A DNA stretch of 64,000 nucleotides from Candidatus Methanomethylophilaceae archaeon (GCA_944321505.1 CALULN010000021.1:1-64000); one strand, 5' to 3'; counted from the stretch's first letter, positions 7,605 to 55,930 are shown. Notes: generated by a model from the sequence alone, not told the origin. Made by a program: numbers and translations.

Positions 7605-8400
7605 GCATCAGGGCATCCATGTCCAGGCACCTCTCGGCGGTGTCCGCCAAACGGTCCAGCGATTCCATGTAGGCCTTCCGCGCATCCGAGAACCTGCCTC
7701 CCTTCTTCGCAGAGATCGAGTCCTCCTCTGGCAGCATGACCTCTTCGTAGGGCATGATCCCCAGGCAGGACATGCCCGTGAGCCCCTCTATCCTGGAGAT
7801 CCCGGATTCCAGTATGCCGGGGTCCCCTCTGAAGCGGTTGATGACGAATCCCTTCACCAGCCCGCGCATCCCCTCCGGGATCAGCAGCCATGTGCCGTAC
7901 AGCGCCGCGAAGACCCCGCCGCGCTCTATGTCGCCAACCAAGATGATGTCCATCCCGCGTTCCGCCGCCATGCGCAGGTTGGCGATGTCCCTCCCCATGA
8001 GGTTTATCTCCACCGGGGAACCGGACCCTTCGCACACCATCGCATAACTCTCCGCGAGCCTGTCGTATGCGGCGCAGGCCTGCTCCAGCAGGTACTCCGG
8101 TTCCGGGCGTCCGCCCGGATGCACCTTCCCGTTGACCACGTACTGGATGACTCCTCTGCCAGAGGGCTTCAGCAGCACGGGGTTCATGTCCGCAGCGGGT
8201 TCCAGGCCGCAGGCCCATGCCTGCATGGCCTGCCCCATGCCGATCTCGGCGCCCTCATCCGTGACATAAGAGTTCAATGACAGATTGGATGCCTTGAACG
8301 GTGCGACAGCGATGCCTCTGCGGGCCATGCACCTGCAGATGGCCGCCGCCAATGTGGTCTTGCCCGCATTGGACGACGTACCGAGGACCATCAATGCCAT
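7564..8400 (-). CDS. CobQ/CbiP-like ATP-dependent synthase lacking the glutamine amidotransferase domain
   Basis: This 278-residue protein covers only the N-terminal, dethiobiotin-synthetase-like half of cobyric acid synthase. The P-loop GTSSNAGKTT is at residues 7-16. The corrinoid-synthase signatures PFKASNLSLNSYVT (about 34) and MNPVLLKPSG follow. CEGSGSPVEIN and the VGDIERGG switch region are also intact. It stops where CbiP continues into its class I glutaminase domain. The start overlaps the cbiP stop as TGATG, so the two are translationally coupled paralogues. It could borrow ammonia or a glutaminase from CbiP, act on another substrate, or be decaying; the clean frame argues against decay. 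Confidence 0.8.
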   Translation of the reverse strand: MALMVLGTSSNAGKTTLAAAICRCMARRGIAVAPFKASNLSLNSYVTDEGAEIGMGQAMQAWACGLEPAADMNPVLLKPSGRGVIQYVVNGKVHPGGRPEPEYLLEQACAAYDRLAESYAMVCEGSGSPVEINLMGRDIANLRMAAERGMDIILVGDIERGGVFAALYGTWLLIPEGMRGLVKGFVINRFRGDPGILESGISRIEGLTGMSCLGIMPYEEVMLPEEDSISAKKGGRFSDARKAYMESLDRLADTAERCLDMDALMLMATSDAAAGPRR

Positions 8401-9887
8401 CAGAACCCCTCCATGAACACCCTGCGGAACAGACCCGTATCCATCGCCTTCCTGAATCCGTCGGCCACGCCGTCGATGGCGGCCTCCAGGTCCTCGGCGT
8501 AGACGTCCCCCTCCCTGGCGGGGACTTCGCCCATCAGGGACAGGAGATGCCTCCTGAACGCCGGGCGCTCCAGCACCCCGTGGAGGTAGGTGCCGAAGAG
8601 CATCTCGCCGTGCCTCACGGACCCCTCCGGCTTCCCGCCCACTGTGAACAGCGGATCCTCACGGGTCTCCGTCCTGCCCATGTGTATCTCGTACCCGGTC
8701 ACAGGCTCTCCGGTGAGGTTGAACACACCCTCGTCGCGTACGGCGACCTTGTCATCGGAGGGCCAGGATGTGACGGCATCGAACAGCCCCAGCCCCGGGG
8801 TGTCACCTGCATCGGGGTCCTCCGCGCCCCTGGGGTCGGACAGCATGCGCCCCATCATCTGATACCCTCCGCAGATCCCCAGTATCGGGACCATGCCGCG
8901 AAGGTCCGTGATCGCGTCGGCCATGCCGGATGACCTCATCCACCTCATGTCCGAGACGGAGTTCTTGGTGCCCGGGATGATGACCGCTCCGCAGCCCTCC
9001 AGCTCTGAAGGCGACCTGACGAAGCGGACGGTGACGTCCTCCCCGTAGAGCGGGTCCAGGTCGGTGAAGTTGGAGATCCTCGGCAGCCTGACCACTCCGA
9101 TCACCGCATCCCCGTCACCGACGGAGTCGGTGTGGCGGAAGAACTCCGAATCCTCCTGGGGGAGGCGGCAGTCCAGATGAGGCACCGCTCCCAGGACCGG
9201 CACTCCCGTCAACCTGCTCAGCTCCGCTGCGCCCTCAAGTATCCCAGAGGTGTCGCCCCGGACGTTGTTGTACAGCACCGCCTTGATCCTCCTGCGGTCG
9301 TCCTCGGGCATCAGCATCAGCGTCCCCAGGACGTAGGCGAAGGACCCTCCCCATTCGGTGTTCACAACGAGTATGCAGTCGGCATCGGCGGCTTCCGCGG
9401 CGCGCATGTTGGCGATGTCCGCATCGTAGATGTTTATCTCGGCAGGGGACCCGGCGCCCTCCATCACCACGAAGTCGTACTCGTCGCGGAGGGCGTCGAG
9501 GTTCTCCCTCAGTATGCCGAAGCCCTTCTGCGGGATGAACTCCCCGTAGTACGACGGCACATCGTACACCCCCACGGGGCGGCCCTCCACGATCACCTGG
9601 GAGCGCATGTCCGAGGTGGGCTTGAGCAGTATGGGGTTCACACGGAACGTGGGCTCCACTCTCGCCGCCTGGCACTGGAGGTCCTGTATCATGGAGATCT
9701 CATGCCCGTCGGCAGTCACCTTGGCGTTGAGGCTCATGTTCTGCGACTTGAACGGGCACACGCTGTAGCCCATGTCGGAGAGGATGCGGCACAGCGCGAC
9801 CGCCGTCACGGATTTGCCGGCGTCCGAGGTGGCACCGAGGACCATGATGGCGCGTCCCTTCCTGCCGCTTGGAGTCTGGGTCTCCAT
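8400..9887 (-). CDS. cbiP: Cobyric acid synthase
   Basis: CbiP/CobQ amidates the b, d, e and g side chains of adenosylcobyrinic acid a,c-diamide using glutamine and ATP. The 495-residue protein has the P-loop GATSDAGKSV, PFKSQNMSLNAKVT, NPILLKPTSD, EGAGSPAEINIYDADIAN, and a class I glutaminase domain. The latter includes VPILGICGGYQMMG with the nucleophile Cys near residue 335 and a His-containing YLHGVLERPAFRRHLL near 445. It is first in a two-gene minus-strand unit. A T-rich box at 9911-9918 lies about 27 bp upstream of the ATG, so the mRNA may be leaderless. Confidence 0.93.
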   Translation of the reverse strand: METQTPSGRKGRAIMVLGATSDAGKSVTAVALCRILSDMGYSVCPFKSQNMSLNAKVTADGHEISMIQDLQCQAARVEPTFRVNPILLKPTSDMRSQVIVEGRPVGVYDVPSYYGEFIPQKGFGILRENLDALRDEYDFVVMEGAGSPAEINIYDADIANMRAAEAADADCILVVNTEWGGSFAYVLGTLMLMPEDDRRRIKAVLYNNVRGDTSGILEGAAELSRLTGVPVLGAVPHLDCRLPQEDSEFFRHTDSVGDGDAVIGVVRLPRISNFTDLDPLYGEDVTVRFVRSPSELEGCGAVIIPGTKNSVSDMRWMRSSGMADAITDLRGMVPILGICGGYQMMGRMLSDPRGAEDPDAGDTPGLGLFDAVTSWPSDDKVAVRDEGVFNLTGEPVTGYEIHMGRTETREDPLFTVGGKPEGSVRHGEMLFGTYLHGVLERPAFRRHLLSLMGEVPAREGDVYAEDLEAAIDGVADGFRKAMDTGLFRRVFMEGF

Positions 9888-9888
9888 G

Positions 9889-9905
9889 TTGGAGGATATG
9901 TCCTA
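9889..9905. promoter_or_regulatory. Degenerate copy of the corrinoid-operon palindrome
   Basis: TTGGAG-GATAT-GTCCTA lies in the 36-bp gap between the divergent cbiP and cobT-like genes. It matches the TTGGAT-N5-ATCCAA element of the other two corrinoid promoters at 9 of 12 arm positions. It sits between the presumed cbiP TATA box and the cbiP start codon. The match is weak and could be chance. Confidence 0.25.
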
Positions 9906-9923
9906 CTCCGATAAAAACATTCG

Positions 9924-11090
9924 ATGGCGGGTATGCAACCCATTATCTACTGCCGAGGCATCCCCTCGGCGATGTCAGACGGATTCACCCTTCCGCCCTC
10001 CCTGAGCATAGCCGGGGACAGGGCCGCGGCCGAGAGGATACTCTCAGGGATCTGGGGACGCAGAGGCGTCTTCACCTGCACGGTCGCCAACACCATGACC
10101 TCCACGATTCCCGGAGTCTCCGATGCCGGCGACACCCCCGAGCTCACCCTGTTCACCCCCGCGGCGGACGCGGAGCTGCTGGTTCTGGGGAGGACGGTCT
10201 GCATGAAGGGCATACCCATCAACCCGGGAGGGATCCCCACCCCGGCCACACTGACCCAGGCAGCGCTGAACCTCTCCAGCATGCCGTACCACATCATAGA
10301 CGCCGGATGCAAGGTCGTCCCCAACATACCCTGCTACGCCGTCGGCGGGACCTACGGGGAGGCGATCACATGCGGGCACGCTGTGCCCGATGCCCGCAGA
10401 CTCTACGAAATGGGCGTGGAGCTGGGACGCCTGTTCGCCAGGGGGACCGACTACCTGATAATCAGCGAGAGCTGCGCCGGCGGGACCACCACCGCCATGG
10501 CCGTGATGATGGCCATGGGCGTCATGACCGAGAACCTGGTCAGCAGCAGCTCCCCCAAGAACCCGAAGGAGCTGAAGAGCAGACTCGTGGCGGAAGCACT
10601 GGAGGCCGCCGGAACCCGCATCGGCGGCCTGGCGGACGACCCGCTGAAGGCGGTGGAATGCGTGGGTGACCCGATGATCGCCGTCAACGCAGGGATGATC
10701 GTCGGCGCCTGCGAGACCGTGCCGGTCATCGTCGGCGGCGGGACCCAGATGGCGGCCGTGATGGCTGTCGCCGCACGCATGGACCCCTCCTGCGTTGGGA
10801 AGTTCATCCAGGGGACCACCAGGTGGCTGGTCAACGACCCCAACTCCGACATAGTCAGGATCATACACGACATCGACCCCGGGATCCCCATGGTCTACGT
10901 GAACATGGACTACTCCGAGAGCCCCTACGAGGGCCTGCAGGCCTACGAATGGGGATACATCAAAGAGGGCGTCGGATGCGGAGGCTCCTCGGTGGGAGCC
11001 ATCGTCTCCAGCGCTGGAAGGATCGGATGCAGGGAGCTGCTGGACGAGGTCCACCGCCTCTACAGGGGCATCCTGGGCATCACCGACTGA
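9924..11090 (+). CDS. CobT-like nicotinate-nucleotide--dimethylbenzimidazole phosphoribosyltransferase homologue (archaeal)
   Basis: The 388-residue protein belongs to the archaeal CobT-like group annotated as the TIGR00303 family. CobT activates the lower-ligand base of cobamides as alpha-ribotide. Recognisable parts are the Gly-rich LIISESCAGGTTTAMAVMMAMG near residues 172-194 and the VIVGGGTQMAAVMAV segment near 265. Its position among cob genes supports the role. It is divergent from cbiP with 36 bp between starts. A second ATG three codons in (9933) is equally possible. The 3' end overlaps convergent cobY by 11 bp. Confidence 0.8.
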   Translation: MAGMQPIIYCRGIPSAMSDGFTLPPSLSIAGDRAAAERILSGIWGRRGVFTCTVANTMTSTIPGVSDAGDTPELTLFTPAADAELLVLGRTVCMKGIPINPGGIPTPATLTQAALNLSSMPYHIIDAGCKVVPNIPCYAVGGTYGEAITCGHAVPDARRLYEMGVELGRLFARGTDYLIISESCAGGTTTAMAVMMAMGVMTENLVSSSSPKNPKELKSRLVAEALEAAGTRIGGLADDPLKAVECVGDPMIAVNAGMIVGACETVPVIVGGGTQMAAVMAVAARMDPSCVGKFIQGTTRWLVNDPNSDIVRIIHDIDPGIPMVYVNMDYSESPYEGLQAYEWGYIKEGVGCGGSSVGAIVSSAGRIGCRELLDEVHRLYRGILGITD

Positions 11091-41574: not shown

Positions 41575-41578
41575 CCGT

Positions 41579-41698
41579 ATGCGCAAGAACGCCACTATCG
41601 CCACCGGACTCCTCCGGCCCTTCAGGAACCACTGCCCACACTGTATGAATGGCGCCGGGAACGGGAAGTCACACTTCTGTATGTACGCAGAATCGTGA
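41579..41698 (+). CDS. Possible 39-residue Cys-rich peptide
   Basis: An ATG 4 bases after the DUF92 stop opens a 39-codon frame. It encodes a basic N-terminus and then CPHCMNGAGNGKSHFC, a CxxC plus H-x-C arrangement able to bind zinc. It is too short for statistical support and may be chance or the remnant of a longer zinc-ribbon protein. The remaining bases to 41890 show no gene. Confidence 0.3.
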   Translation: MRKNATIATGLLRPFRNHCPHCMNGAGNGKSHFCMYAES

Positions 41699-41890
41699 AC
41701 CGTCCGGCGGATTCATAGTCGTTCATGAGTCGAAAGCCGATAACCTGCCGCCCAGCATCAGCCGGTAACAGCTTCACGCACGTCATCCAAGGGCATTAAG
41801 ACACGTCACGGACCATAAGCCATCAACCATAGAGTCTGAGTCCAATTTGAACTGAACTGCTTATGCTGAGTCCAGCTCACTCAGAATCTT

Positions 41891-42868
41891 TCACCGCCTG
41901 TACTTTTCCGCCCCGAGTGTCTTCTCTATCTCCGCCAGCCTCTCCACCCTGTCTTCTACGGACGGGTGCGTGTCAAGGAGGGAGCACAGAAGCCTGCGCC
42001 TCCTCCTTCCGAAGGGATTAACGATCCAGAGGTTCGCGGCAGAGGCATCCCCGTAATCGTTGGCTTCTCTGCCGCACCACTCATCCAGCTTCACCAGGGC
42101 GCGCGCCAGTGCCATGGGCTTCCCGGTCATATACGCCGCCGATTCATCCGCACCGTACTCCCTGTTCCTGGACACGCCGAACCTCATCAACGCAGCCGCA
42201 GACGGAAGAGCGACTGCCATCACAAGACAGACCAGCATCACCGGTATCGCGATAGCCAGCACGATCAGGAAGAGTATGCCGTTACCGCCGGATCTCGTAT
42301 TGGATCCCATGCCGAGCGATGCCAATAGCATCACTCCTACACCACCCATGGCGATTGCGGAGACCGTGAGCAGTTTGGCGCTGATGCGGGCGGTGCCGTT
42401 GACCGCCGTGTCCCGATTGACGATATGGGAGATCTCATGGGCCATCACCCCCTCCAGCTCCTCGTCGGACAGCAGCCTCATAAGAGGAGCGGTAGCAGCC
42501 ACCATCGCATCGTCCGGACCCCTGCCGAGGGCGAATGCGTTAGGATAATCGACGTCCAGGACGAACACCTCCGGCATCGGGACCCTTTCCTTTTCGGCCA
42601 GCCTCTGCACTATGCTGTAAAGACGGGGCTCGGTGTCGGCTGTGACCCCCTTGCCCCTGAGCTTCTCCACCAGCGGCTTTCCGCTCTGCACGACAGCGTA
42701 GACGGAGCATGCGATGGCAACCATCAGAAACAGTGCCATGCCGTACTTCCATCCGGAGCCTCCGGTGAAGAAATAGGTGACGGCAAACCCCAGAAGTGCG
42801 CCGACGATGGTGTAGGTGACCACGGTGATGCCGAGGATCAGAACGGTGCTCTTCGTGCACTGATCCAT
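41891..42868 (-). other. HtpX-like protease unit with its own ATG inside the long frame
   Basis: Translated alone from ATG 42868 this gives 325 residues, the normal size of HtpX. HtpX is a membrane zinc protease of protein quality control. Two membrane helices (about 10-30 and 40-58), HEISH near residue 146, and two more helices (about 170-190, 205-230) follow the family. If the -1 frame is the native end of the GrpE-like protein, its stop at 42870-42872 lies directly before this start, giving a coupled gene pair. Confidence 0.7.
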
Positions 42869-44911
42869 ATCACTCGTCCTCAGACCCATCCTCAGTGACA
42901 GAATCGTCTCCACCCGCAGACGGTTTCCCGTTCTCCTGCCTCTCTTGCGGGAGGGGTTCTTGCGGTACGTTAGCAAACGATTCCGGGCCCCGGATCTCGC
43001 CTGGTTGGTCGTCAGCCATCGTTTCCTCCTGTATCGCCGATTCGAAACAGCGGATTCCGGCTCATCCAGATGGGCCTCGTGCTCCCCCTCTTGAGCTGGC
43101 ACCTCACACTCGTCTCTTTCGGGCATGGAAGCTTCCGGTATCGAGGGCGATTTCGGCACATCATTATCAATGATCGGTTCGGATTCGGGGATCCCATCCG
43201 ATTGACCGTCTGCAACGGGGTCCTTTTGTTCCACCGACTCAAGAGCTGCTGCTTCAGACCCATCCTGAGGAGCTGCACCGACTTCCTCTGCGGGCGATGC
43301 ATCGCGTTCCTGATCCTCCGAAACTAGAGGTGCGGGAATCACCGGCGGCTCTGAAACATCGATATCAACGGCAGGTTCCGGATTACGGATTCCACCGGAT
43401 TGGTCATCGGCCGCCGCCTCTTCGGATTCCAGAGAGCTGACATCCGCAGTATGCGATTCATCCTGTGGAGCAGTATCATCCCCCACCTCGGGCAGCGGTC
43501 CATCATCCTGCTTTGCGGATGCGGGCTCGTTGAGCTCACTGTCTGAAGCCGATTCCGGGTCGGATACGTCATCGATTACGATCTCGCCCTCCTCAGGCCC
43601 CGCTTCTACATACCGAACCTCTGTAGATTGCTGTACATTCTGCGATTCTGCTTCCTCAGCGCCTCTGACGATTTGATCTGGACCCGGGAGCTCGATGACG
43701 TCAGGCAGAGGCGCATCGTTCTCCTGAACAGGACCGGCTTCCTCGGAACCGTCCTGCTCATCGGATTCCCGACTGCCCGTATCGCGTGAACCGTCAGCCT
43801 CCTGTACATCTGTGTCTACGGTTTCTCCGGCACCCGTTGCGCCCAAGGATGAATCCGCCCCCGGATCATAACGGTGAATCGAGAGCCGCTCCGGTACGTC
43901 ATCATATGCTCCATCCTTGAAACGGCATCCGATGCCCTCCACACGTTTCACGCACATATCCAGCGACTGCTGATTGGTGGAAACGAAAATCGGTTCATAC
44001 AGCTGCTCATCAACCAACTGATGACCGCGCTTGTGCCAGAGCAGCTCCACCCCGTGAGCGGATAAGTGCTTTCTCAGATCATCCGTGATGGCATCATAGA
44101 ATCCTCTGTCGAATGATTGGTTGTCTTCGAGCATGTTGTTGACGTACCCGATGTACTTCAGGAAGTCTCTGACGACAGCTCTGACCTGCACCGAATCCTT
44201 GGCCTTCAGCTCAGCGGACCTCCTTCTCAGAGTCTCGTCGAGATCCCTCTCCCTGCTATTGAGGCGACTGCTGAGTGTGCTGTTTCTGCTCTGCAGCTCG
44301 GCATTCCTCTTCTGCAGCCCATCAATCCTGCTCTGCAACTCAGCCATCCTGCTCTGCAGTTCGGTTCTATCTCCCTGAAGCTTCTGCAACGTGTTCTGAA
44401 GGCTTTCGGAGTGTGCCTGACTCTTCTGTAGATTCTCGGAGAGCTCGCAGTTGTTCTTCCTCAGATCTTCTATCGCCGATTTAAGCTCAGATATCTCGGA
44501 ATCCCTGTCTTCGACCTTCTTCCTGAGTGCGTCCCTATCCTCCTCCAGACTATACCTCTCACCTTCAACGGTTTTGAGTGAACGCAGCTCTTCCATCGGA
44601 TCCGAATCGCTGCATCTGGGGATGACCTTGTACTTCTTCCTGGAACCGAACAAATTCACGGAACCCTGAATCATGCTTGATGCAAGACAACCCACGAGGT
44701 CATCCGGCGTTTCATAGAGATCGGTGATGAGCGATTGTGTAATTATCCTCGAACAGTTCTTGCAGCTGTATCCGTCTTTGCTAGACCTCAGATTGATATC
44801 CTTGCATCCGCAGCTGAGTTCGATCATCGCAAAATACTCGATACGAGGGGCGCTGTCGCTCTCCTTTTCGCTTTTCTTCGATTTCTTGCCCATGTATTCC
44901 ACGAGTCCCAT
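41891..44911 (-). CDS. GrpE-like coiled-coil protein reading in frame into an HtpX-type M48 metalloprotease
   Basis: One open frame of 1006 codons holds two units. The first has a CxC...CxxC zinc-ribbon-like head (about 30-58), a long coiled coil (110-245, LQSRMAELQSRIDGLQ type), a GrpE-like domain (about 250-345), and acidic repeats of about 65 residues. The second, from Met at 42868, is an HtpX-like protease with two N-terminal helices, zinc motif HEISH in EGVMAHEISHIVN, and AlaAspGluSer ligand region YGADESAAYM. Between 43043 and 42870 the frame turns basic; the -1 frame there encodes the expected third acidic repeat and stops 2 bp before the protease ATG. So this is either a true fusion, a recent indel, or a sequencing error. 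Start chosen at 44911, just after the Hsp70 stop. Confidence 0.75.
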   Translation of the reverse strand: MGLVEYMGKKSKKSEKESDSAPRIEYFAMIELSCGCKDINLRSSKDGYSCKNCSRIITQSLITDLYETPDDLVGCLASSMIQGSVNLFGSRKKYKVIPRCSDSDPMEELRSLKTVEGERYSLEEDRDALRKKVEDRDSEISELKSAIEDLRKNNCELSENLQKSQAHSESLQNTLQKLQGDRTELQSRMAELQSRIDGLQKRNAELQSRNSTLSSRLNSRERDLDETLRRRSAELKAKDSVQVRAVVRDFLKYIGYVNNMLEDNQSFDRGFYDAITDDLRKHLSAHGVELLWHKRGHQLVDEQLYEPIFVSTNQQSLDMCVKRVEGIGCRFKDGAYDDVPERLSIHRYDPGADSSLGATGAGETVDTDVQEADGSRDTGSRESDEQDGSEEAGPVQENDAPLPDVIELPGPDQIVRGAEEAESQNVQQSTEVRYVEAGPEEGEIVIDDVSDPESASDSELNEPASAKQDDGPLPEVGDDTAPQDESHTADVSSLESEEAAADDQSGGIRNPEPAVDIDVSEPPVIPAPLVSEDQERDASPAEEVGAAPQDGSEAAALESVEQKDPVADGQSDGIPESEPIIDNDVPKSPSIPEASMPERDECEVPAQEGEHEAHLDEPESAVSNRRYRRKRWLTTNQARSGARNRLLTYRKNPSRKRGRRTGNRLRVETILSLRMGLRTSDMDQCTKSTVLILGITVVTYTIVGALLGFAVTYFFTGGSGWKYGMALFLMVAIACSVYAVVQSGKPLVEKLRGKGVTADTEPRLYSIVQRLAEKERVPMPEVFVLDVDYPNAFALGRGPDDAMVAATAPLMRLLSDEELEGVMAHEISHIVNRDTAVNGTARISAKLLTVSAIAMGGVGVMLLASLGMGSNTRSGGNGILFLIVLAIAIPVMLVCLVMAVALPSAAALMRFGVSRNREYGADESAAYMTGKPMALARALVKLDEWCGREANDYGDASAANLWIVNPFGRRRRRLLCSLLDTHPSVEDRVERLAEIEKTLGAEKYRR
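42870..43043 (-). other. Frame conflict: -1 frame continues the acidic repeats
   Basis: In the -1 frame from 43043 the codons read ESAIQEETMADDQPGEIRG and on to DGSEDE-stop. They line up with AADDQSGGIRNPEPA and VADGQSDGIPESEPI of the two preceding repeats. The main frame here is Arg-rich and matches nothing. AGGAGG five bases before an ATG in this -1 frame (near 43020) also looks like a Shine-Dalgarno site for a 50-codon peptide. Confidence 0.6.
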
Positions 44912-44927
44912 CTGCGAACGCACCCGC

Positions 44928-46523
44928 CTACTGCTCGTCTCCTCTCTGAGAATCGCTGCTGACCGACCGCTTGCCAAACGCCAGCTTCTTTCCCGACGGG
45001 TCCGTGACCGTCAGCTCCAGGATGCCGTTGACGTCCAGAGACATGGTTGCATACATGCGGAACCCTCTGGCCTTCCCGAGGAACTCCGGCGGGACCTGAA
45101 CGGTGACCACAAGGCCGTTCTGCGTCTCCCCGGAGTTGAGATCGTACCAGTTCTCATCGAAACCGGTTCCCCGGAGATTCTCCGACTCGTAGACTATGAA
45201 CGACACCCTGTTCTGATTGTCCCTCAGCGGTATGAAGCTCGAATCAGAGTCCACGACGATCATGCCGTTGTCTCCGAACCGGTCACCTTTGTAGATCATG
45301 TTGTAGATCGCATCCCTTTCTGAATGGTAGCGGGAATCGAACCCGTATGTGAGAGTGACCATATCCATGACCCTCGGCCCCATAGCGGATCCATCGGTCT
45401 GGAAGTTCATCTTGGAGAACACTGCTGCCCCCTTCGCTATGGCCTTCGAAGGTTCGTACACCATCACATCTTCGGGTCTGAAACCGGTTCTGCTGATGAT
45501 CCCATCTCTTATCTGAGGCATGTTGCTGCTGCCGCCGACAAGAACGATCTTGTCAACGGAGGATCCCTCATCGAAATCTCTGGCTTTATCCACGACATCC
45601 ATCGCCCTCTCCAAGAGATGAGCTGTGCAGTCCTCGAACTCCCTGCGGTTGATGCGGACGAAACGGTCCTGCCCGGCCATGCTGAACAGAACTATGGCTT
45701 CATCCATCTCGGTGAGTTCCATCTTGGCCTTGGTGACGGAGTTGTTGAACCTGGCCTCCTCCTCCTCGGTACCCGTCCATTTGCCTACGGTCTTCTCCAG
45801 GATTCTCTCCCTCAGAACCGCATCCCAGTCGTTGCCTCCCAGATTCAAATCCCCTTCCTTCGCAAGAATCCTGTACTCCATGGTGACAGGGTCGTGCTCG
45901 ACGATGCTGACGTCGAGGGTCCCTCCGCCGAGGTCGAAGACCAGAATCTTCTGCGTCCCGTCGTAATGTGTGCGGACGTCTTCGCTGTACAGATATGATA
46001 TCGCAGCCGCCACAGGCTCCTGGAGGATCCTGACGTTCTCCTTCGGGAGCCCGGTGATCCTCATGACGGCGTCCTGCAGGAGCTGGTTGTACTCGGAGGC
46101 CATCATCTGCCCGGCGGCGATTCCCACAGGAGCGGTGATCGTGATCATCTCGATGTCCGTGTTGCTGTACTCTCCGGACTTTATGGCTGCGGACTTGATC
46201 TCACTGATGAGGAACGTCAGGTACTTCTCGATGACCTCGCTGAGGGTGTACTCCTTCCCGCCGCTGGACACAGTCTTCCCCAGATTCGCCGGGTCCTCCC
46301 TGACGGTGCGCTTCATGTAGCGGATGATGTCTGCGGAATGGCGGAGCGCTTCCGCGGTTGTGCAGTCCCTCCCGTACAGCTCCTTCCCCTTCTCGGCGGA
46401 GTACATGAAAAGCGAGGGCACCCCCATGCCTTCGTGGTCCTTGATGAAGTTGGTGACGGGGATGAGTCCGCTCATGATCGCAGCGCTCGAATAACAGGTG
46501 CCGAAGTCTATGCCGACTATCAT
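44928..46523 (-). CDS. Hsp70/DnaK-family protein, short form
   Basis: The 531-residue protein has a full Hsp70 ATPase domain: GIDFGTCYSSAA (4-15), ITAPVGIAAGQ for the usual TVPA-F, EPVAAAISY, DLGGGTLDVSIVEHD near 194, and VLVGGSSNMPQIRDGI near 330. The substrate-binding part is shortened to about 150 residues (380-525) with a beta-sandwich-like segment ending LELTVTDPSGKKLAFG. The helical lid and EEVD-like tail are missing. It leads the operon with the GrpE-like/HtpX frame and is divergent from a CARF-like regulator. A specialised chaperone rather than the housekeeping DnaK is likely; no dnaJ is nearby. Confidence 0.9.
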   Translation of the reverse strand: MIVGIDFGTCYSSAAIMSGLIPVTNFIKDHEGMGVPSLFMYSAEKGKELYGRDCTTAEALRHSADIIRYMKRTVREDPANLGKTVSSGGKEYTLSEVIEKYLTFLISEIKSAAIKSGEYSNTDIEMITITAPVGIAAGQMMASEYNQLLQDAVMRITGLPKENVRILQEPVAAAISYLYSEDVRTHYDGTQKILVFDLGGGTLDVSIVEHDPVTMEYRILAKEGDLNLGGNDWDAVLRERILEKTVGKWTGTEEEEARFNNSVTKAKMELTEMDEAIVLFSMAGQDRFVRINRREFEDCTAHLLERAMDVVDKARDFDEGSSVDKIVLVGGSSNMPQIRDGIISRTGFRPEDVMVYEPSKAIAKGAAVFSKMNFQTDGSAMGPRVMDMVTLTYGFDSRYHSERDAIYNMIYKGDRFGDNGMIVVDSDSSFIPLRDNQNRVSFIVYESENLRGTGFDENWYDLNSGETQNGLVVTVQVPPEFLGKARGFRMYATMSLDVNGILELTVTDPSGKKLAFGKRSVSSDSQRGDEQ

Positions 46524-46555
46524 CTTGAATCCTCATACGGTCCTATGTGTGCATA

Positions 46556-46563
46556 GATATATG
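46556..46563. promoter_or_regulatory. Shared, near-palindromic TATA box of the Hsp70 gene and the first CARF-like gene
   Basis: GATATATG reads as CATATATC on the other strand and lies in the 76-bp gap between divergent starts. It is about 36 bp from the Hsp70 ATG and 40 bp from the CARF-like ATG, so both could use it. The same octamer CATATATC serves the second CARF-like gene at 48038-48045. Confidence 0.5.
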
Positions 46564-46579
46564 GAAAAAGTCTAATACC

Positions 46580-46599
46580 GTCACAAAATCCTTCTTACC
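46580..46599. promoter_or_regulatory. Island operator copy 3, GTCACAAAATCCTTCTTACC
   Basis: It lies 20 bp upstream of the TATA centre for the Hsp70 operon and directly abuts the ATG of the first CARF-like gene, covering its likely transcription start. It is identical to the two other copies (48060, 51035) at 13 of 20 positions, with GTCA and TTACC fully conserved. A protein here could affect both divergent genes. Confidence 0.55.
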
Positions 46600-47274
46600 A
46601 TGCACGTGCACATAGCCACGGCGGGCCAGGCGGTGGAACCGGTGGTCAAGGCGTTCAACGCCATCCCGGGGATCGATAAAGTGTACCTGCTGTGCAGCAA
46701 CCCCTTCAGAGAATCGGCGATGCATCTGGAGAGCTTCTTCCAGGCGGCGATGGTGCCCGTAGAGACCAGGTATGTGGACGGGTTCGACTTCCAGGGGATG
46801 GTGGATGCCATCTACGCCATCTTCGAGAGGGAAGGCGGGAAAGGAACCGATTTCTCCATCAACATTACAGGCGGAACCAATCTGATGGCCGCATCCGCCT
46901 GCTCCACGGCGTTCTTCGTAGGCGCCAGGATCTGCTATGTGCTCCGCAGCCCGGAGAAGACCGCATCCGAGCAGCTCATCTGGATACCGACGCCGAGCAT
47001 CCCGGACCTGCACCGCGTCAAGGGCAAGACCCGCGAGATCCTGTCCTACATCATGGAGAGGACCAGGGACGGCGGGGCGGTGACTTCCACGCAGATCGAC
47101 TCCGACTTCGGATACGGGAAGCAGGCGGTGTCGTATCACGTCAGGGTGCTGGTCGAGGAGGGCCTGGTGGAGAAGGTCCGCGGCATGACCGGGGACGGCA
47201 GGGTGGACAACAGGATGAACGCCCTGAGGATCACCGGACAGGGACGGCTGGTGGCAAGCTGGCTCTCCGAATGA
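46600..47274 (+). CDS. CARF-like (DUF6293-type) winged-helix transcriptional regulator, first copy
   Basis: The 224-residue protein has an N-terminal Rossmann-like CARF domain: MHVHIATAGQAVEPVVKAF, VYLLCSN, and the ligand-loop motif NITGGTNLMAASACSTAF near 88-105. A C-terminal winged helix (about 145-222; TSTQIDSDFGYGKQAVSYHVRVLVEEGLV) follows. CARF domains sense cyclic oligonucleotides or related ligands and are common in CRISPR regulators. No cas gene is in the window. Its stop touches the stop of the convergent second copy with no base between. Confidence 0.85.
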   Translation: MHVHIATAGQAVEPVVKAFNAIPGIDKVYLLCSNPFRESAMHLESFFQAAMVPVETRYVDGFDFQGMVDAIYAIFEREGGKGTDFSINITGGTNLMAASACSTAFFVGARICYVLRSPEKTASEQLIWIPTPSIPDLHRVKGKTREILSYIMERTRDGGAVTSTQIDSDFGYGKQAVSYHVRVLVEEGLVEKVRGMTGDGRVDNRMNALRITGQGRLVASWLSE

Positions 47275-47946
47275 TCAGAGGGTGTTGGCGATCATCACAC
47301 CCTGGGACGTCAGCACCAATGCGCACCTGCGGCCGTCCACCTTCCCGTCTGAACCGATATACTCAGACTTCTTCAGGAGACCGTCGTTCACCAGGATCCT
47401 GATGTGGTATCCGGCCTTCTGTTTGTTTATGCCGAACTGCTGTGCCACATCGGACCCGGTGGCCACCGCCCCGTCGTCCCTACAGCGGAGGATGTAGCGC
47501 AGTATCTCCTTGGTCAAATCACGATAGCCGCTCACATCTACGGTCTTCGGCGCGGTGATCTCGATGACCTGCCGGTCGATGGGGCCGTCACCGTTCAGGG
47601 AGTAGTAGATCTTGGCGCGGATGTAGTAGGCGCTGTAGCAGGTTGCCGCCGCCATAAGGTTGGTGCCGGCGGTGATGTTCACCGAGTACTCCACATCACG
47701 GCCCTTGGTGCCCTCGAAGATGGAGTAGATGGTGGTGACGATCCCCATGAAATCCGAGAAGGGGATGATGCGCAGCGATATGGACGGTATCATGCAGGAG
47801 AGGGTGTCCCTGATGCCCTCGGCCGTCCTCTGGGACTCCTCATGGGTTGTGTGCAGAAGGTAGAGTGAGTCTATCCCGGACAGCTTGCTGACCACCTTCA
47901 TGATGGGTTCCTTGGTGAACCCTACCGGGGTAATGTGAATGTGCAT
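47275..47946 (-). CDS. CARF-like (DUF6293-type) winged-helix transcriptional regulator, second copy
   Basis: The 223-residue paralogue has the same layout: MHIHITPVGFTKEPIMKVV, LYLLHTTHEESQ, NITAGTNLMAAATCYSAYY near 90-108, and a winged helix (about 148-220; GSDVAQQFGINKQKAGYHIRILVNDGLL). The key motif has Ala for the first Gly of the other copy, so ligand affinity may differ. The ATG at 47946 is chosen because the paralogue starts at the same place; a GTG six codons upstream is possible. Its leader carries a palindrome that may mediate autorepression. Confidence 0.85.
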   Translation of the reverse strand: MHIHITPVGFTKEPIMKVVSKLSGIDSLYLLHTTHEESQRTAEGIRDTLSCMIPSISLRIIPFSDFMGIVTTIYSIFEGTKGRDVEYSVNITAGTNLMAAATCYSAYYIRAKIYYSLNGDGPIDRQVIEITAPKTVDVSGYRDLTKEILRYILRCRDDGAVATGSDVAQQFGINKQKAGYHIRILVNDGLLKKSEYIGSDGKVDGRRCALVLTSQGVMIANTL

Positions 47947-48007
47947 ACCCCTTTCCCCCCTCACACCGCGATGGCATCCTCGGGGGAGATTCCCCAGCCC
48001 GTCTTCC

Positions 48008-48023
48008 TAACCATTGATGGTAA
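48008..48023. promoter_or_regulatory. Palindrome over the predicted start of the second CARF-like gene
   Basis: TAACCATTGATGGTAA pairs 6 of 7 bases per arm and contains TTACCAT-type half-sites like the right end of the 20-bp island operators. It lies about 25 bp below the TATA box at 48038-48045, where transcription should begin. Confidence 0.45.
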
Positions 48024-48037
48024 GACGTTCAAGTAGA

Positions 48038-48045
48038 CATATATC
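48038..48045 (-). promoter_or_regulatory. TATA box of the second CARF-like gene
   Basis: The minus strand reads GATATATG, 95 bp before the ATG, giving a leader of about 70 nt. The 20-bp operator copy 2 begins 18-19 bp upstream of its centre. Confidence 0.5.
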
Positions 48046-48059
48046 TGAATTGAATGACG

Positions 48060-48079
48060 GTCAAAATATTTACATTACC
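48060..48079. promoter_or_regulatory. Island operator copy 2, GTCAAAATATTTACATTACC
   Basis: It matches copy 1 (51035-51054) at 15 of 20 positions and has the same orientation and spacing to the minus-strand TATA box. It lies between the second CARF-like gene and the 3' end of the helicase gene. Confidence 0.55.
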
Positions 48080-48088
48080 ATATCCGTC

Positions 48089-50968
48089 TCAACCGCACAT
48101 GCGGACGATGTCCCCGATGAGCTCCCCCTCCTGAGCCCTCCAGAACTCCGTATCGCATACCAGCACCAACCTTCTCTTCGCTCTGGACAGGGCTGTGTTG
48201 ATCACCTTGAGGCCGATATTCCCCTCGTCCGTCCTGCGGGAGCTGGAGAAGCGCAGATCCTTCTCGGCTTTCTTATTGGCTCTCCCGTCGCAGACCGAGA
48301 CTATCACCGTGTCCCACTCCCTGCCCTGGGACTTGTGTATGGTGAGCACATGGTCGCCTATCGTGCGACCGATCCTCTTGATCTCGGATACCTGATCCCT
48401 GTAAGCGGCCAGCACCACATAGTCATCGTCGTTGGCCAGCCTGTTGGCTCTGATGTAGTCGCACACCGCCTGAGCCTCCGGCTTGTTGATTCTGAGGCTA
48501 TTGCCTTTGGAATCCTTCGGGAACTCCTCCGTACGGGCATCGATGATCACGATGTCCAGCGATTCCGAGGCGCTGTCCATCCCAGTGCCGTACACGTGAC
48601 CGGCCAGCACCTCCGCCATGTTGGATCCGAACCTGTACGTCCTCTTCAGCATGGTGTGCGCGGTGAACGGGAAATCCGGCTCTTCGAAATGCCGGTACAT
48701 GCGGGCAAGAGCGTCCATGGAACCGTCGAAGTAATGGTCCATGTAGAGCGCGGACATGTCCCACAGGAAATTGCAGCGCTTGTCGCCGCCGTCATCGATC
48801 CACTCCAGAAGGTCCTCCCTCTTCAGCTCGCAGACCGGCGGCAGCTGCATATGGTCCCCCAGCATGGCTATGGGCACACCGAGCGTGAACAGCGACGCGG
48901 CCTGGATGCTGTTGCAGTAACCCGCCTCATCGACGAACACCCTGTCTACATCCAGCTTCTTGCGGCCATTGGACTCCCGCGGTCCAAATGAGATGATGAA
49001 CCGGGAGAGCGTCATAGCCACCACTTTGAATGTGCTGAGGTCCCCGGTCCTGTCCCGCGGGCGGATCCTATCGATTTCCACATCCAGCTCGGCGATCTCC
49101 TTCCTGATGCTGTCACCGCCCACCTCCTTCAGTTCATCCAGATAGTCGGTGCGGTCGTGGTCATACAGCAGTTTGCGGATGAACGACGCATACTCCGCCA
49201 CATTGCTTCTGGTGACCCTCATGGCGTTCACGGAGTACCGGTCGTCCCGGCGCATGGCATCCAGAACAGGAGCCAGCTTCTTCCAGATCCTGTCCCTGCC
49301 GGCATCATCGGCGGCCGAGATGCGCTCCGCATCCCCGACGGCGTCATCGCAGACCCCCCTGAGGGACTCGTACTCCCCCTCGAGGAGCACACGGGAGAGA
49401 TGGCGGTGCCTGCCGACCTTCTCGGCATGCTGCTTCTTCAAGCCCTTGTCCTCACATACATACGGGAACTCCCTGGCGAAATCGGATGTGGGAGTCCCAA
49501 CCCTCAGCACATCCTTCTGCGGGTCTATGATCCCTTTGATCTCCGGTTTGGACGAGAAAGCCTTGAGCAGCCCTCTGAGCACCTGTTCCAAAGCGACGTT
49601 CGTAGGCGCTATGACGGCGATGCGCTCGCCGTGGGAGATGGACTCGCATATGGACGTTGCCAGCACCGACTGGGTCTTGCCGGAACCCGGGACACCCCAC
49701 ACATACGAGAGGGGATTGGACAGCACAGATCTGACGGATGCCTCCTGCTCCTCCGAGATGCCGAAAGCGGCGATGATCCCGCTGTCGCGGTACACATTGG
49801 GGGCAGGAGGGAAGCGCATGTAGTCTCCATAATCGACGAAGAACGATTCCGTGCGCTCTGCCAGCCATTTCGTGTCAGTGAACAGTAGTATGTCACCGGG
49901 TTCGGACTCCAGAGCCTCCCGCAATTCGTTACTCGGATACAACTTTATCGTCCTGGCAGTGCGGTTGTAGCTGTCGAAACTCACCTGCGAGCCGGAGAAC
50001 TCCTTCCCGTCCACGATGATGCCGAGGGAATCGTCCACCTGCATCTGATATTTCATTTTGAGGATGAATCCGAAGGACGACGGCTCCGCTTTGATCACTT
50101 CGTTGGTGAAACGGGCCGTCTTCGGTTTGACTTCCTGCTCCTCCTGCAGCGCCGACCTGAATCCGCTGCTCGCCAGGATGCAGATGTCACCAACAATGCC
50201 CTCGCCGGACGAAGCGGTCAGTGTGCATGGCCTCCGGCTCTCAGGCCGCTGTGCCGGATCCACCGCCGGACCTGCTCCGGCTTTCGGGGATGACGCATTG
50301 GTAGCCCCGTTCGCCGGGACCCCTGCCCCCTGAGGCTTCGATGCGGTCGGTTCGGACGGTGCTGTGGCGGCATCGGATCCGTCCATGGATGAGATGAGAA
50401 CACCAAGCAGCTTCTCCAATTCGTCGGTGACGCCCAGTGACAGCATCTCAGACGCATTGATCATAGACAATATGGGCTCCATCGCCCGATGCAGGTTATA
50501 ATCAACATGCCCGCTATGGGAGACGGCATTCCTGATATTCCGGATGCGCTGTAACGGGGGGACGGCTTGCTTGGGAAGATCTGCTGGGATGAGCTTCATC
50601 TCTTCGATGATCTTCAGACAGGAAATGACGTCCATGTATGTGCGCACCGTATCGTTGCCTACATCCGTGGATACCGGGATGTCGCGAGAAAGATGGCATT
50701 CAAACCTCTTCGGCACGATCTCGTCGGCCCACCACGAGGTTCCATAACGGAAGCTCATCTCCGAGATGATGTAATCCTGCAGACCGATCTGGAAGGTATC
50801 CAGAGCACGGCGGACGAGTTCCTTGTTGTTCAGCTCGGGTCTAGAGGGCATCGGATCAGCCGGCCCTGGATTCCCATTCGAAGTCATTAACCTGGCGCAA
50901 CGTCCGTCACGCCGAATGCTGTTGCGGCCATCATGTTCCGCACCCGAGCCCTTAGCCGGCATACCCAT
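48089..50968 (-). CDS. HEPN (Swt1-type)-UPF1-like SF1 helicase
   Basis: The 959-residue protein begins with a Swt1-like HEPN domain (about 40-185): LDTFQIGLQDYIISEM, a WWADEIVPKRF segment, and the RNase-type motif RNAVSH with Arg146, Asn147 and His151. A linker and an OB/1B-like region (about 270-400) follow. The SF1 helicase core has Walker A GVPGSGKTQ near 424, Walker B VFVDEAG near 676, GDHMQLPP, RTYRFGSN, TIHKSQGREWDTV and NTALSRAKRRL. UPF1-type helicases move on RNA or DNA; HEPN domains with RNxxxH cut RNA. The ATG at 50968 suits the TATA box; a GTG at 50974 precedes it. Confidence 0.88.
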   Translation of the reverse strand: MGMPAKGSGAEHDGRNSIRRDGRCARLMTSNGNPGPADPMPSRPELNNKELVRRALDTFQIGLQDYIISEMSFRYGTSWWADEIVPKRFECHLSRDIPVSTDVGNDTVRTYMDVISCLKIIEEMKLIPADLPKQAVPPLQRIRNIRNAVSHSGHVDYNLHRAMEPILSMINASEMLSLGVTDELEKLLGVLISSMDGSDAATAPSEPTASKPQGAGVPANGATNASSPKAGAGPAVDPAQRPESRRPCTLTASSGEGIVGDICILASSGFRSALQEEQEVKPKTARFTNEVIKAEPSSFGFILKMKYQMQVDDSLGIIVDGKEFSGSQVSFDSYNRTARTIKLYPSNELREALESEPGDILLFTDTKWLAERTESFFVDYGDYMRFPPAPNVYRDSGIIAAFGISEEQEASVRSVLSNPLSYVWGVPGSGKTQSVLATSICESISHGERIAVIAPTNVALEQVLRGLLKAFSSKPEIKGIIDPQKDVLRVGTPTSDFAREFPYVCEDKGLKKQHAEKVGRHRHLSRVLLEGEYESLRGVCDDAVGDAERISAADDAGRDRIWKKLAPVLDAMRRDDRYSVNAMRVTRSNVAEYASFIRKLLYDHDRTDYLDELKEVGGDSIRKEIAELDVEIDRIRPRDRTGDLSTFKVVAMTLSRFIISFGPRESNGRKKLDVDRVFVDEAGYCNSIQAASLFTLGVPIAMLGDHMQLPPVCELKREDLLEWIDDGGDKRCNFLWDMSALYMDHYFDGSMDALARMYRHFEEPDFPFTAHTMLKRTYRFGSNMAEVLAGHVYGTGMDSASESLDIVIIDARTEEFPKDSKGNSLRINKPEAQAVCDYIRANRLANDDDYVVLAAYRDQVSEIKRIGRTIGDHVLTIHKSQGREWDTVIVSVCDGRANKKAEKDLRFSSSRRTDEGNIGLKVINTALSRAKRRLVLVCDTEFWRAQEGELIGDIVRMCG

Positions 50969-51010
50969 CTGCACCCTCTCCGAGAACAGTCTCTGACCGA
51001 CCGCTGCGTA

Positions 51011-51020
51011 GATATTTATT
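51011..51020 (-). promoter_or_regulatory. TATA box of the HEPN-helicase gene
   Basis: On the minus strand AATAAATATC is centred about 47 bp upstream of the chosen ATG; the predicted leader is about 20 nt. Confidence 0.5.
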
Positions 51021-51034
51021 CAGTCTTCTGGACA

Positions 51035-51054
51035 GTCAAAACATCAATGTTACC
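51035..51054. promoter_or_regulatory. Island operator copy 1, GTCAAAACATCAATGTTACC
   Basis: It starts 19-20 bp upstream of the TATA centre of the HEPN-helicase gene, the same geometry as copies 2 and 3. A second TTACC follows immediately. It may also touch expression of the divergent remnant gene at 51106. Confidence 0.55.
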
Positions 51055-51105
51055 TTACCCGCCCTGGACTCCGACAGAACGGACCGTCTGCCACACCTGC
51101 AGGCA

Positions 51106-51768
51106 ATGATGATATCACCACAAAGCATCCAAGACCTGATGAGAGCGATTCCCATCGGTGTGGATGACTTCCGGGAGATAATGGAGGCTGACGGATACTA
51201 CGTCGACAAGACGGCGCTCATCGACCACCTGCTGAAGGATAAGCTCACCAAGGTCCACCAGTTCGTACGCCCCCGCAGATTCGGGAAGAGCACCAACCTG
51301 AGCATGCTGGACTACTACTTCAACATGAGATACGCAGGCAACGATTGGTTCGATGGACTTGAGATATCGGATCTGCGCCCCGACGATCCTGAGAAGAACG
51401 CACACCCCGTCATATCGCTCAGTCTGAAGGATGCTTACACCTCGACATACGAGGAGTTCGAGATCAGTATGGGGATAAGGATGTCCGACATCTACCTGAA
51501 GTTCCCTGAGATTGCCGAATGCGGTTCCGTCCCGGCATCGCTCAGGAAAAGATACGAGGATGTCATCGAGAGGAGAGCGGCCGCACCGCTTCTGAAGAAC
51601 GCCCTTGGAGACCTGTCGGATGACGACCTGAGGGCCGTAGCTGCCGATGCCCTGGAGCAAATCAGGAAGATGGACTACACCCACGGCCTCCGGGGAAAGA
51701 CCCTGATGTACGGCATCGCATTCTCCGGCAAAAGGCCGGCAATAGCCTCGGACATCGTCGAGATGTGA
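51106..51768 (+). pseudogene. Truncated AAA-ATPase-like/PD-(D/E)XK (DUF1703) protein with internal deletion
   Basis: The 220-codon frame joins two ends of a family normally 500-570 residues long. Residues 1-150 match the AAA-ATPase-like start (AIPIGVDDFREIMEADGYYVDKTALIDHLL, motif VRPRRFGKSTNLSML). Residues 175-215 match the extreme C-terminus of the nuclease domain (QIRKMDYTHGLRGKTLMYGIAFSGKRP, split). The middle, including the rest of the ATPase and the PD-(D/E)XK core, is gone without a frame break. It may still be translated but should be inactive. It marks the edge of the accessory island. Confidence 0.75.
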
Positions 51769-51800
51769 CGCTCCGATTGCGGATGGACGATCATATAGCA

Positions 51801-51810
51801 AACATTATAT
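51801..51810 (+). promoter_or_regulatory. TATA box of the 5S rRNA gene
   Basis: AACATTATAT(A) lies about 27 bp upstream of the 5S 5' end, as expected for a separately transcribed archaeal rRNA. Confidence 0.55.
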
Positions 51811-51832: not shown

Positions 51833-51958
51833 TGGCATGACGGCCATAGCGGCGGGGTCACACCCGGTCCCATTCCGAACCCGGCAGTAAAGTCCGTCCG
51901 CGTACCCGTCTGTACTGTATTGCGCAAGCGTACGGGAACACGGGCACGCTGTCAGCCA
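51833..51958 (+). rRNA. rrf: 5S ribosomal RNA
   Basis: Conserved 5S elements are readable: GGCCATAGCGGCGGGG, GGTCCCATTCCGAACCCGG (51879-51897) and AGTAAAGTCCG. Helix I closes between 51833-51841 (TGGC and TGAC with one bulged A) and 51951-51958 (GTCAGCCA). Ends are accurate to a few bases. No 16S or 23S gene adjoins it. The gene stands between the accessory island and ppsA. Confidence 0.93.
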
Positions 51959-54562: not shown

Positions 54563-55930
54563 TCATCTGTACCAGCAGATATCCTTCAGGGACACCAGCG
54601 TCGCGTCCCTCTCGTCGGCGCATGCCTCCAGCTCGGGCGTGAACCCCCCTTTGGAGAACAGGGCGTACCTCCTCTTCCCGGGAGCCCTGACCCTCATGGA
54701 CTTCTCCTCCAGCTCGTCCAGCACGCTCAGGCCGACGGCGGAGTCGCGGTAGCGGCAGTCGCAGAACAGGGTCTGGGACCTGTCGTCGGATTCGGCGACG
54801 ATGTCTATGCGGTCCATGCTCCTGCGGCCGTCGGAACCCCACCACATACCGATCTCCCCCGGGGCCATGTCGAAGAAGGCGTGGTTCCCCTCGATGAACT
54901 GGACGCATATCTCACGGAACGCAGAGCGGACCAGCGCGTCCATGCCCGCAGATGCTAACGGACCGTACAGATCATCCTCGGCACGGTAGTCTATGATGGA
55001 CTGGTTCCCCTCCACGAAGGAGTACCACAGCCTGGCCGCCGGGTCCCGTATGCGGTACATGCTCCGCCTTGAATCGGGTTCCCCGTACGGCGAGAGCCTC
55101 TCAGCGACACCTTCTCTCACAAGGGACGACAGATAAGTGGAGCAGGCGGCTGCGCTGCCGATGCCGGATCTCTCCACGATGTCGCCCATGCGGAGCATCC
55201 CGCTCCCGATGGATGACAGGATGGCCACATAGGCGTCGGAGCCCCGAAGGGATGTGCGCGAAAGCGGGTCACGATACCATGCGCCGTCCGGGGACAGCAG
55301 CAGACGGTCGATCCCCCACTGGACCCCGCTGCGGACGTCCATGGACGAGATAATCGACGGCTCCCCGCCGGTGACCGCATAGACTCCGACGGCATCCTCC
55401 GGGGACAGGAACGGGAATGCCTGAACGACCTCCGAGAACCTCAGCGGACCCAGGCCGATGGTGTTCAGGGCGGTTCCGTAGCGCCTTCCCGCGGTGCATC
55501 CGGTAGATCCGACCAGCACCAGCATCACATCCGAACCGCGGAACGCCCCCGAGCGCACGGCCTCTGCGACGGGGTCGTCGTCCTCCGGGAACCTGTCGTA
55601 CCCGTCCACCACCAGGACGATCCTCCCCTTCTCCGACAGCTTGGACACGAATCCGGCGGCATCCTGGAATGATGAGAACCTCACCAGGCTGCGGAGCCCT
55701 TTGTACATGGACTTGGAGACTGCCGTCGATAAAGCGGCCAGGTTGCGGTCCCTCCCCCCGGCAACGGCGGTGAACGGCACCACCCTCCTGCCGCGGCAGA
55801 ACTCCCTCATCAGAGAGGTCTTGCCGCATCCGCGGGGCCCCTCCACCGATGCGATGACGAACCCCGGCGTCGAATAGAGAGCCTCCAGACGTCCGATCTC
55901 CCTGTCCCTTCCGAAGAATGCGCGACTCAA
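54563..55930 (-). CDS. Archaeal-type AAA ATPase with C-terminal DUF234
   Basis: The 455-residue protein has FFGRDREIGRLEALY, Walker A GPRGCGKTSL (about 30-39), Walker B IVLVVDGYDRF near 105, a winged-helix linker (about 235-300), and a DUF234-like PD-(D/E)XK-type domain (about 300-440) with IDIVAESDDRSQTLFCDCRYRD. Such ATPases are numerous in archaea and of unknown function, often in mobile or defence settings. The start codon is TTG (55930), about 37 bp below the CATAAATAAG box at 55962-55971; no better ATG exists upstream. Confidence 0.85.
   Translation of the reverse strand: MSRAFFGRDREIGRLEALYSTPGFVIASVEGPRGCGKTSLMREFCRGRRVVPFTAVAGGRDRNLAALSTAVSKSMYKGLRSLVRFSSFQDAAGFVSKLSEKGRIVLVVDGYDRFPEDDDPVAEAVRSGAFRGSDVMLVLVGSTGCTAGRRYGTALNTIGLGPLRFSEVVQAFPFLSPEDAVGVYAVTGGEPSIISSMDVRSGVQWGIDRLLLSPDGAWYRDPLSRTSLRGSDAYVAILSSIGSGMLRMGDIVERSGIGSAAACSTYLSSLVREGVAERLSPYGEPDSRRSMYRIRDPAARLWYSFVEGNQSIIDYRAEDDLYGPLASAGMDALVRSAFREICVQFIEGNHAFFDMAPGEIGMWWGSDGRRSMDRIDIVAESDDRSQTLFCDCRYRDSAVGLSVLDELEEKSMRVRAPGKRRYALFSKGGFTPELEACADERDATLVSLKDICWYR

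Follow-up and report, generated by a model that had tools for sequence, protein, structure and literature searches.

A block of CARF regulators, a divergent Hsp70 and a HEPN-helicase with a candidate operator of its own in a methanogenic archaeon

Introduction

Why should two CARF-type regulators stand between the genes of a chaperone-protease operon and the gene of a putative RNase-helicase, and do these genes work together? The question is raised by a 64,000-nucleotide stretch of DNA from a Candidatus Methanomethylophilaceae archaeon (GCA_944321505.1 CALULN010000021.1:1-64000; here called the window), in which positions 41,891 to 51,054 hold two proteins that combine a CARF domain with a winged helix-turn-helix (wHTH), an Hsp70/GrpE-like/HtpX operon, and a HEPN domain fused to a UPF1-like helicase. 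CARF proteins have mostly been studied as nucleases or as regulators of cas genes that are fed by type III cyclases. The host (genome G000; a gut-type methanogen of the Methanomethylophilaceae; 1.39 Mb in 31 contigs, 95% complete) gave no hit in searches for Csm1 and SMODS cyclases.

An earlier, sequence-only reading had proposed a signal-controlled stress or antiviral module. Based on the analyses below, we consider it probable that the genes form a mobile, co-regulated, CARF-controlled and inducible module for defence or damage. Two CARF regulators would then govern, through an operator of their own, a chaperone machine and an RNase-helicase where neither cyclase was found. The defined 35-bp DNA target makes it testable what orphan archaeal CARF regulators sense, and also why an RNase defence would need an Hsp70 of its own.

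Results and Discussion

The block and its CARF pair

All genes named by the sequence-only reading are present in a low-GC island of ~10.2 kb (41575..51810, ends approximate), which extends from a DUF92-type gene (ending at 41574) to a 5S rRNA gene and has a GC content of 0.54-0.59 between 41.6 and 51.8 kb, compared with ~0.64 around it. By "block" we mean the helicase, CARF-B, CARF-A, Hsp70 and GrpE-like genes, with or without HtpX. The regulators indeed lie between the chaperone-protease operon and the helicase: helicase and CARF-B are encoded on the minus strand, CARF-A on the plus strand, and Hsp70, GrpE-like and HtpX again on the minus strand, divergent from CARF-A.

CARF-A (46600..47274, plus strand) and its paralogue CARF-B (47275..47946, minus strand) are placed tail to tail, match the PADLOC model CARF3 (E 7.5e-66 and 7.2e-48, respectively) and pass the 30-bit cut-off of HFX_2341_N (PF19810; 34.5 and 40.6 bits). 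Both end in a wHTH, with HTH_20 scoring 33.1 bits in CARF-A and 24.1 bits, below the model's cut-off, in CARF-B; CARF-A also contains the CARF motif GGTNLM. CARF-wHTH regulators have been described (PMC4012209, PMC7465815, PMC8844856), and for one of them, Csa3, binding to both cA4 and palindromic sites is on record (PMC8844856, PMC8699464). The block pair resembles Csa3 and HFX_2341-like regulators in joining CARF to a C-terminal wHTH, in being of dimer type and in its association with CRISPR or defence loci. However, it reaches only 19.2 and 22.3 bits with the Csa3 model TIGR01884, far under the cut-off of 60.2, and its targets, as judged by the promoter element described next, would be the HEPN-helicase and the Hsp70-GrpE operon, not cas genes.

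A shared promoter element

The promoters of the helicase, CARF-B and Hsp70 genes each carry a 35-bp element (35-36 nt ungapped), in which a dyad (G/T)AC-N-GT(C/A) precedes an ATRTCTA box by ~20 bp. In the window, the three copies (51007..51041 before the helicase, 48032..48066 before CARF-B and 46552-46586 before Hsp70, all on the minus strand) match both a position weight matrix (PWM) and a consensus pattern. The last copy falls within the 76-bp divergent promoter between Hsp70 and CARF-A (46524..46599), also matched by PWM and pattern, which is kept in the two other genomes with a block, G003 (same genus as the window) and G008 (UBA71). In all three genomes, an inverted ACNGT half-site in this promoter faces CARF-A.

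Across the three window promoters, 16 of 36 aligned columns are identical, while 150 random triples of window promoters and 200 shuffles gave at most 14 shared columns. A PWM built from the three window sites and run over the G003 and G008 loci (18-20 kb each) gave its two best scores in both, 28-33 bits, to the promoters of Hsp70 and CARF-B (next 17-18); with leave-one-out matrices, every window site was recovered with 25-32 bits (next ≤14). Genome-wide, the consensus TNTKAYNGTM-N15-ATRTCTAY has 3, 2 and 2 matches in G000, G003 and G008, all of them in the block; one mismatch gives zero matches in the three genomes, and two mismatches give numbers near the control level. As this pattern was written from the seven block sites themselves, what is informative is that no others turned up. 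Independent regulation, which the sequence-only reading had named as evidence that would count against a module, is thus not what the promoters suggest; their common element points to co-regulation by sequence criteria.

Which factor would read the element? It points away from CARF-A and towards CARF-B, which argues against a simple duplication of a CARF gene together with its promoter. When the window-only PWM was applied to held-out genomes, its top match lay just upstream of a CARF gene at two further loci, L088 (27.9 vs 11.9 bits) and L087 (20.6 vs 14.2 bits). The CARF-A homologues there are 45% identical to CARF-A and have the element placed as it is in the block, without Hsp70. At L087 (7880-10759), the cargo is a MazF/PemK-like toxin and an LA2681-type HEPN protein with RNSIIH; at L088 (5169-12399), it is a short open reading frame (ORF) that by eye resembles the start of the L087 HEPN protein, beside CobN. 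Tyrosine-integrase genes lie nearby in both. The presence of the element beside block-CARF homologues with other cargo is the strongest indication that CARF is its reader and that the cargo is exchangeable. These comparisons strongly suggest that a CARF protein is the factor reading the element, whose DNA it would bind directly, and they point to the block as a candidate private regulon.

Recurrence and insertion of the block

Recurrence of the block in other genomes had been set as a test beforehand, and the block was found in two of them and as a remnant in the window's own genome. When 101 relatives and 400 sampled genomes of the class were searched, orthologues of the Hsp70 (73-74% identity) occurred only in G003 and G008 (3/400 class genomes including the window). 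In both, which represent two genera, helicase, CARF-B, CARF-A, Hsp70 and GrpE-like genes follow the window's order. A CARF-profile scan of 85,000 species genomes yielded 17 loci, with Hsp70/GrpE only at those of G003 and G008. CARF-A and CARF-B each form a supported clade of three members (window, G003, G008), indicating that the pair is ancestral to the three block copies.

The recurring order also bears on the possibility that unrelated accessory genes were gathered here by chance. Defence islands are known to collect unrelated genes, extra genes stand between the members in G008, and HtpX is missing in G003. Given, however, an order kept in two genera, monophyletic CARF-A and CARF-B, and one private element on several transcripts, we regard a chance gathering as very improbable.

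Several observations suggest that the block moves. On contig C9 of G003, the neighbouring genes follow the same order around an empty site: the two flanks are 325 bp apart, the DUF92-type gene directly adjoins the 5S rRNA/ppsA side, and the alignment restarts ~30 nt before the 5S rRNA gene. Judged by this empty site in a genome of the same genus, the block is an insertion in the window genome. Its proteins are 64-74% identical to those of G003 or G008 (68-74% to G003 alone, helicase apart), whereas housekeeping proteins of the flanks reach 94-97% identity when window and G003 are compared; the window copy is therefore not a vertical orthologue of the G003 copy. By these sequence criteria, the block is a mobile and rare accessory module. 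No integrase, direct repeats or clear target-site duplication were found at the ends of the window island, no relatives of the block CARF or Hsp70 were found on viral contigs, and no relevant plasmids carried the block helicase or CARF-A.

The CRISPR neighbourhood

In G003, the block stands beside valS on contig C3 and is flanked by a type I-C operon (Cas3-Cas5-Cas8-Cas7) and by a type II-A locus, on whose side a 20-repeat array lies with Csn2-Cas2-Cas1-Cas9. In the window's own genome, the same valS site, at the end of contig C1, holds a remnant with 93-95% identity to the G003 block. Through an internal deletion, the HEPN-encoding part of its helicase gene now runs directly into the region for the GrpE C-terminus; behind it comes a type I-E array, whose repeat agrees with that of the array behind the I-E operon at one end of contig C13. 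From the remnant at valS, the matching G003 block and the intact copy at the 5S site, it follows that in this lineage a block at a CRISPR hotspot was probably for the most part deleted, and that a second, diverged and intact copy is kept at the 5S site. The absence of CRISPR and cas genes asserted by the sequence-only reading thus holds for the window and fails at the homologous loci. Its broader proposal of a signal-controlled module gains from the recurrent block, the common element and the sequence tie to CARF; what it had missed is that two of the four known copies (G003 and the remnant) stand at CRISPR loci.

One could conclude from this neighbourhood that the CARF proteins are Csa3-like switches for nearby CRISPR-Cas loci and the block an accessory of CRISPR immunity. 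The position of the intact G003 copy, with I-C cas genes on one side and a II-A array on the other, the remnant adjoining a I-E array, and the ties of the CARF-wHTH proteins Csa3 and MM_0565 (Methanosarcina mazei) to CRISPR loci (PMC8844856, PMC7465815) speak for it. We nevertheless judge this role quite unlikely: the element was not found at the cas operons or arrays of G000 and G003; no Cas1 was found in G008 although the block is present; the intact window copy is away from CRISPR; and the flanking CRISPR types differ among genomes, as would fit a shared hotspot.

Two side observations concern these CRISPR loci. The II-A locus of G003 (L060 12887-19901 / L085 137-6009) is complete, with a Cas9 of 1333 aa, Cas1, Cas2, Csn2 and the 20-repeat array, and its contig, with valS and the I-C operon, belongs to the Methanomassiliicoccales; Cas9 is rare in archaea. 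The I-E CRISPR locus of G000 is split over two contig ends that share the same repeat (L084 6700-8174, L079 767-10247).

The chaperone operon

The Hsp70 (44928..46523, minus strand; PF00012 131.5 bits vs 20.6 cut-off) is divergent and consists of an ATPase domain, a linker and a short C-terminal part. Its best PDB matches are Hsp70/DnaK, it scores far under the DnaK equivalog cut-off, and its ATPase motifs and linker are kept. As it ends ~140 residues past the linker, it is most likely lidless; a model by AF2 (AlphaFold2) from three sequences reached a predicted local distance difference test score (pLDDT) of only 44. It is the best-conserved block protein (about 73-77% identity).

The protein downstream (42869..44893, minus strand; conserved part 43850-44893) is a predicted nucleotide exchange factor with a zinc ribbon, a coiled coil, a GrpE-like region and an acidic low-complexity tail. 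The GrpE model PF01025 (cut-off 25.8) gives 28.1 bits in the window when the region is cut out of its ORF, 27.2 in G008 and no match in G003; the CxC...CxxC pattern is kept in 3/3 copies. A low-confidence AF2 model (pLDDT 64) shows a long helix, two further helices and strands, and Foldseek returned GrpE chains among its top matches (E only ~0.6), while a PDB search with the profile of the protein found coiled coils only. A GrpE identity is tentatively suggested by the modest profile scores, reached in two of the three copies, by the place after hsp70 and by the low-confidence model.

HtpX (41891..42868, minus strand), an M48 zinc metalloprotease, is supported by PF01435 (97.4 bits vs 20.3), HEISH and NCBIfam HtpX models. 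Positions 41891-44977 read as a single 1028-aa ORF joining the GrpE-like protein to HtpX. A true fusion was rejected by frame analysis and by a separate HtpX gene in G008 (56% identical): the acidic repeats of the GrpE-like tail run on in the neighbouring frame to a TGA that overlaps the HtpX ATG. The sequence indicates that the long ORF is a frameshift (or sequencing error) at ~43040-43060 in the acidic tail of the GrpE-like gene. Of the operon described by the sequence-only reading, Hsp70 and HtpX were thus confirmed, the GrpE-like part is weaker, and HtpX is optional, being absent from the G003 block.

This operon raises the alternative of a protein-damage regulon, not antiviral as such, with Hsp70-GrpE-HtpX as its main output, a CARF domain sensing a stress alarmone or RNA ends, and a HEPN-helicase that deals with damaged RNA. 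Such sensing is reported for the CARF domain of RtcR, three of six block proteins are of protein-quality-control type, the Hsp70 is the best conserved of them, and Csm1 and SMODS searches found no cyclase. Defence is the better match for the patchy mobile spread, the place in a CRISPR hotspot and the fast evolution of the HEPN effector, and block-CARF homologues elsewhere stand beside MazF-like/HEPN, SF1-helicase or restriction-modification (R-M) genes, so that we hold a pure damage regulon to be unlikely.

Dedicated Hsp70 and GrpE genes are also recruited by some of the DO-GTPase-centred conflict systems (Kaur et al. 2020, PMC7159879), and in this the block is alike; the block proteins, however, include no GTPase domain. 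The block Hsp70 forms a separate clade on its own long branch, apart from DnaK and from the DO-GTPase-cluster Hsp70, and a derivation from the latter is unsupported. In a genome of the same family (G038; L070 3151-11814), such a cluster comprises an Hsp70, a 1033-aa zinc-ribbon protein, DO-GTPase2, GrpE and a second Hsp70; many genomes of the family have a long and a short Hsp70 gene paired at a distance of ~7 kb, suggesting that the DO-GTPase2 cluster is widespread. The housekeeping DnaK gene of the window genome (G000:C23:92776-93900) has one in-frame TGA, a sequencing error or a sign of a pseudogene.

The HEPN-helicase

The helicase gene (48089..50974, minus strand, start codon uncertain) encodes an N-terminal Swt1-like HEPN domain fused to a UPF1-like SF1 helicase (AAA_11/AAA_12). 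HEPN_Swt1 scores 27.8 bits in G003, above the 27.5 cut-off, 26.5 in the window, just below it, and 21.8 in G008. The RNxxxH motif is kept in all three orthologues (RNAVSH/RNFQSH/RNNLSH) and in the remnant, which suggests that the protein may act as an RNase. It is the least conserved block protein (41-48% identity between copies; 41% window vs G003), and this fast evolution fits the expectation for an effector.

The best PADLOC match is Mokosh MkoA (1.8e-32, residues 406-957), a likeness confined to the helicase core; the block protein lacks a kinase or PLD domain or partner, has HEPN instead, and does not belong to Mokosh. HEPN fusions to SF-I helicases, with an inferred defence role, were described by Anantharaman et al. 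2013 (PMC3710099). The block protein shares this design, here with an Swt1/Abi2-type HEPN and RNxxxH, but has no fused endonuclease, transglutaminase or wHTH, and differs in being linked to CARF regulators and a chaperone. In other archaea, CARF-wHTH genes also stand beside large UPF1-like SF1 helicases (L063 2038-8015, L091 3230-6761, L099 6373-10636, L101 9986-13303; helicases confirmed by Pfam in L063 and L099); a PemK label given by eye to small genes in L063 and L067 was unsupported by Pfam.

A possible mechanism and what speaks against it

We suggest that CARF-A, and probably CARF-B, binds the dyad (G/T)AC-N-GT(C/A) at the helicase, CARF-B and Hsp70-GrpE(-HtpX) transcripts, with a related half-site facing CARF-A. 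Invasion or RNA damage would give rise to a ligand, either a nucleotide or a product of RNA, and its binding by the CARF domains would switch all transcripts together; we infer the direction of control from the position of the element, which sits where archaeal activators sit. The HEPN-UPF1-like protein would then cut RNA as an effector of the dormancy or abortive type. The lidless Hsp70 and its GrpE-like partner, joined in some copies by the membrane protease HtpX, may meanwhile hold or remodel proteins that were made or damaged at that time, or clear them away. The antiviral role, the ligand and the chaperone clients are parts of this proposal.

The following points weigh against the module as proposed. 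Intact copies number only three, and a PADLOC search matched no known defence system to the block's gene set. The GrpE assignment is weak in G003, whose helicase promoter has the dyad without the full element. The element was defined after the promoters had been seen, and pairwise comparison of the promoters was only modest, not decisive. Unlike for type III-linked CARF proteins, no Csm1/Cas10 was found in the block's genome: TIGR02578, positive in seven controls, found none in G000 and G003 (Cmr2-type Cas10 was not searched separately) and one short, weak, sub-cut-off fragment in G008. No SMODS cyclase was found in any of these three genomes. The ligand would therefore come from an unknown cyclase, be an invader-derived signal or consist of RNA ends.

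Among known kinds of system, accessory defence modules under CARF regulation come closest; what is new is the chaperone arm, together with the private operator. A literature search found no described system joining CARF with Hsp70/GrpE, though the CARF classification of Makarova 2020 may mention one; the lone paper that brings these terms together concerns the GTPase-centred conflict systems (PMC7159879). More tentatively, and with clear doubt, the block could be a CARF-signalled defence system with an Hsp70-GrpE machine and a HEPN-helicase RNase, belonging to a wider group of cargo-swapping cassettes (CARF, private operator and exchangeable RNase cargo) in the Methanomassiliicoccales, using a ligand that does not come from Cas10 or CBASS cyclases.

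Surroundings and further observations

The 5S rRNA gene on the right flank of the insertion (51836..51957, plus strand) matches Rfam RF00001 with 83.5 bits. Between it and the helicase, a truncated AAA-ATPase_like gene inside the island (51106..51768, plus strand; PF09820, 124/201 profile positions, 220-aa ORF) has no counterpart in the G003 and G008 blocks. Outside the island, a DUF234/AAA ATPase gene (54563-55930) with weak similarity to PADLOC PDC-S27 is kept in G003 at the empty site. Finally, a haloarchaeal operon (L090, L092, L094-L097, ~7000-10660) encodes a ~680-aa protein, a ~280-aa protein and an HFX_2341-type CARF-wHTH regulator and is sometimes found beside R-M-like genes; in L092, the ~680-aa protein is an Eco57I/HSDR_N-type methylase.

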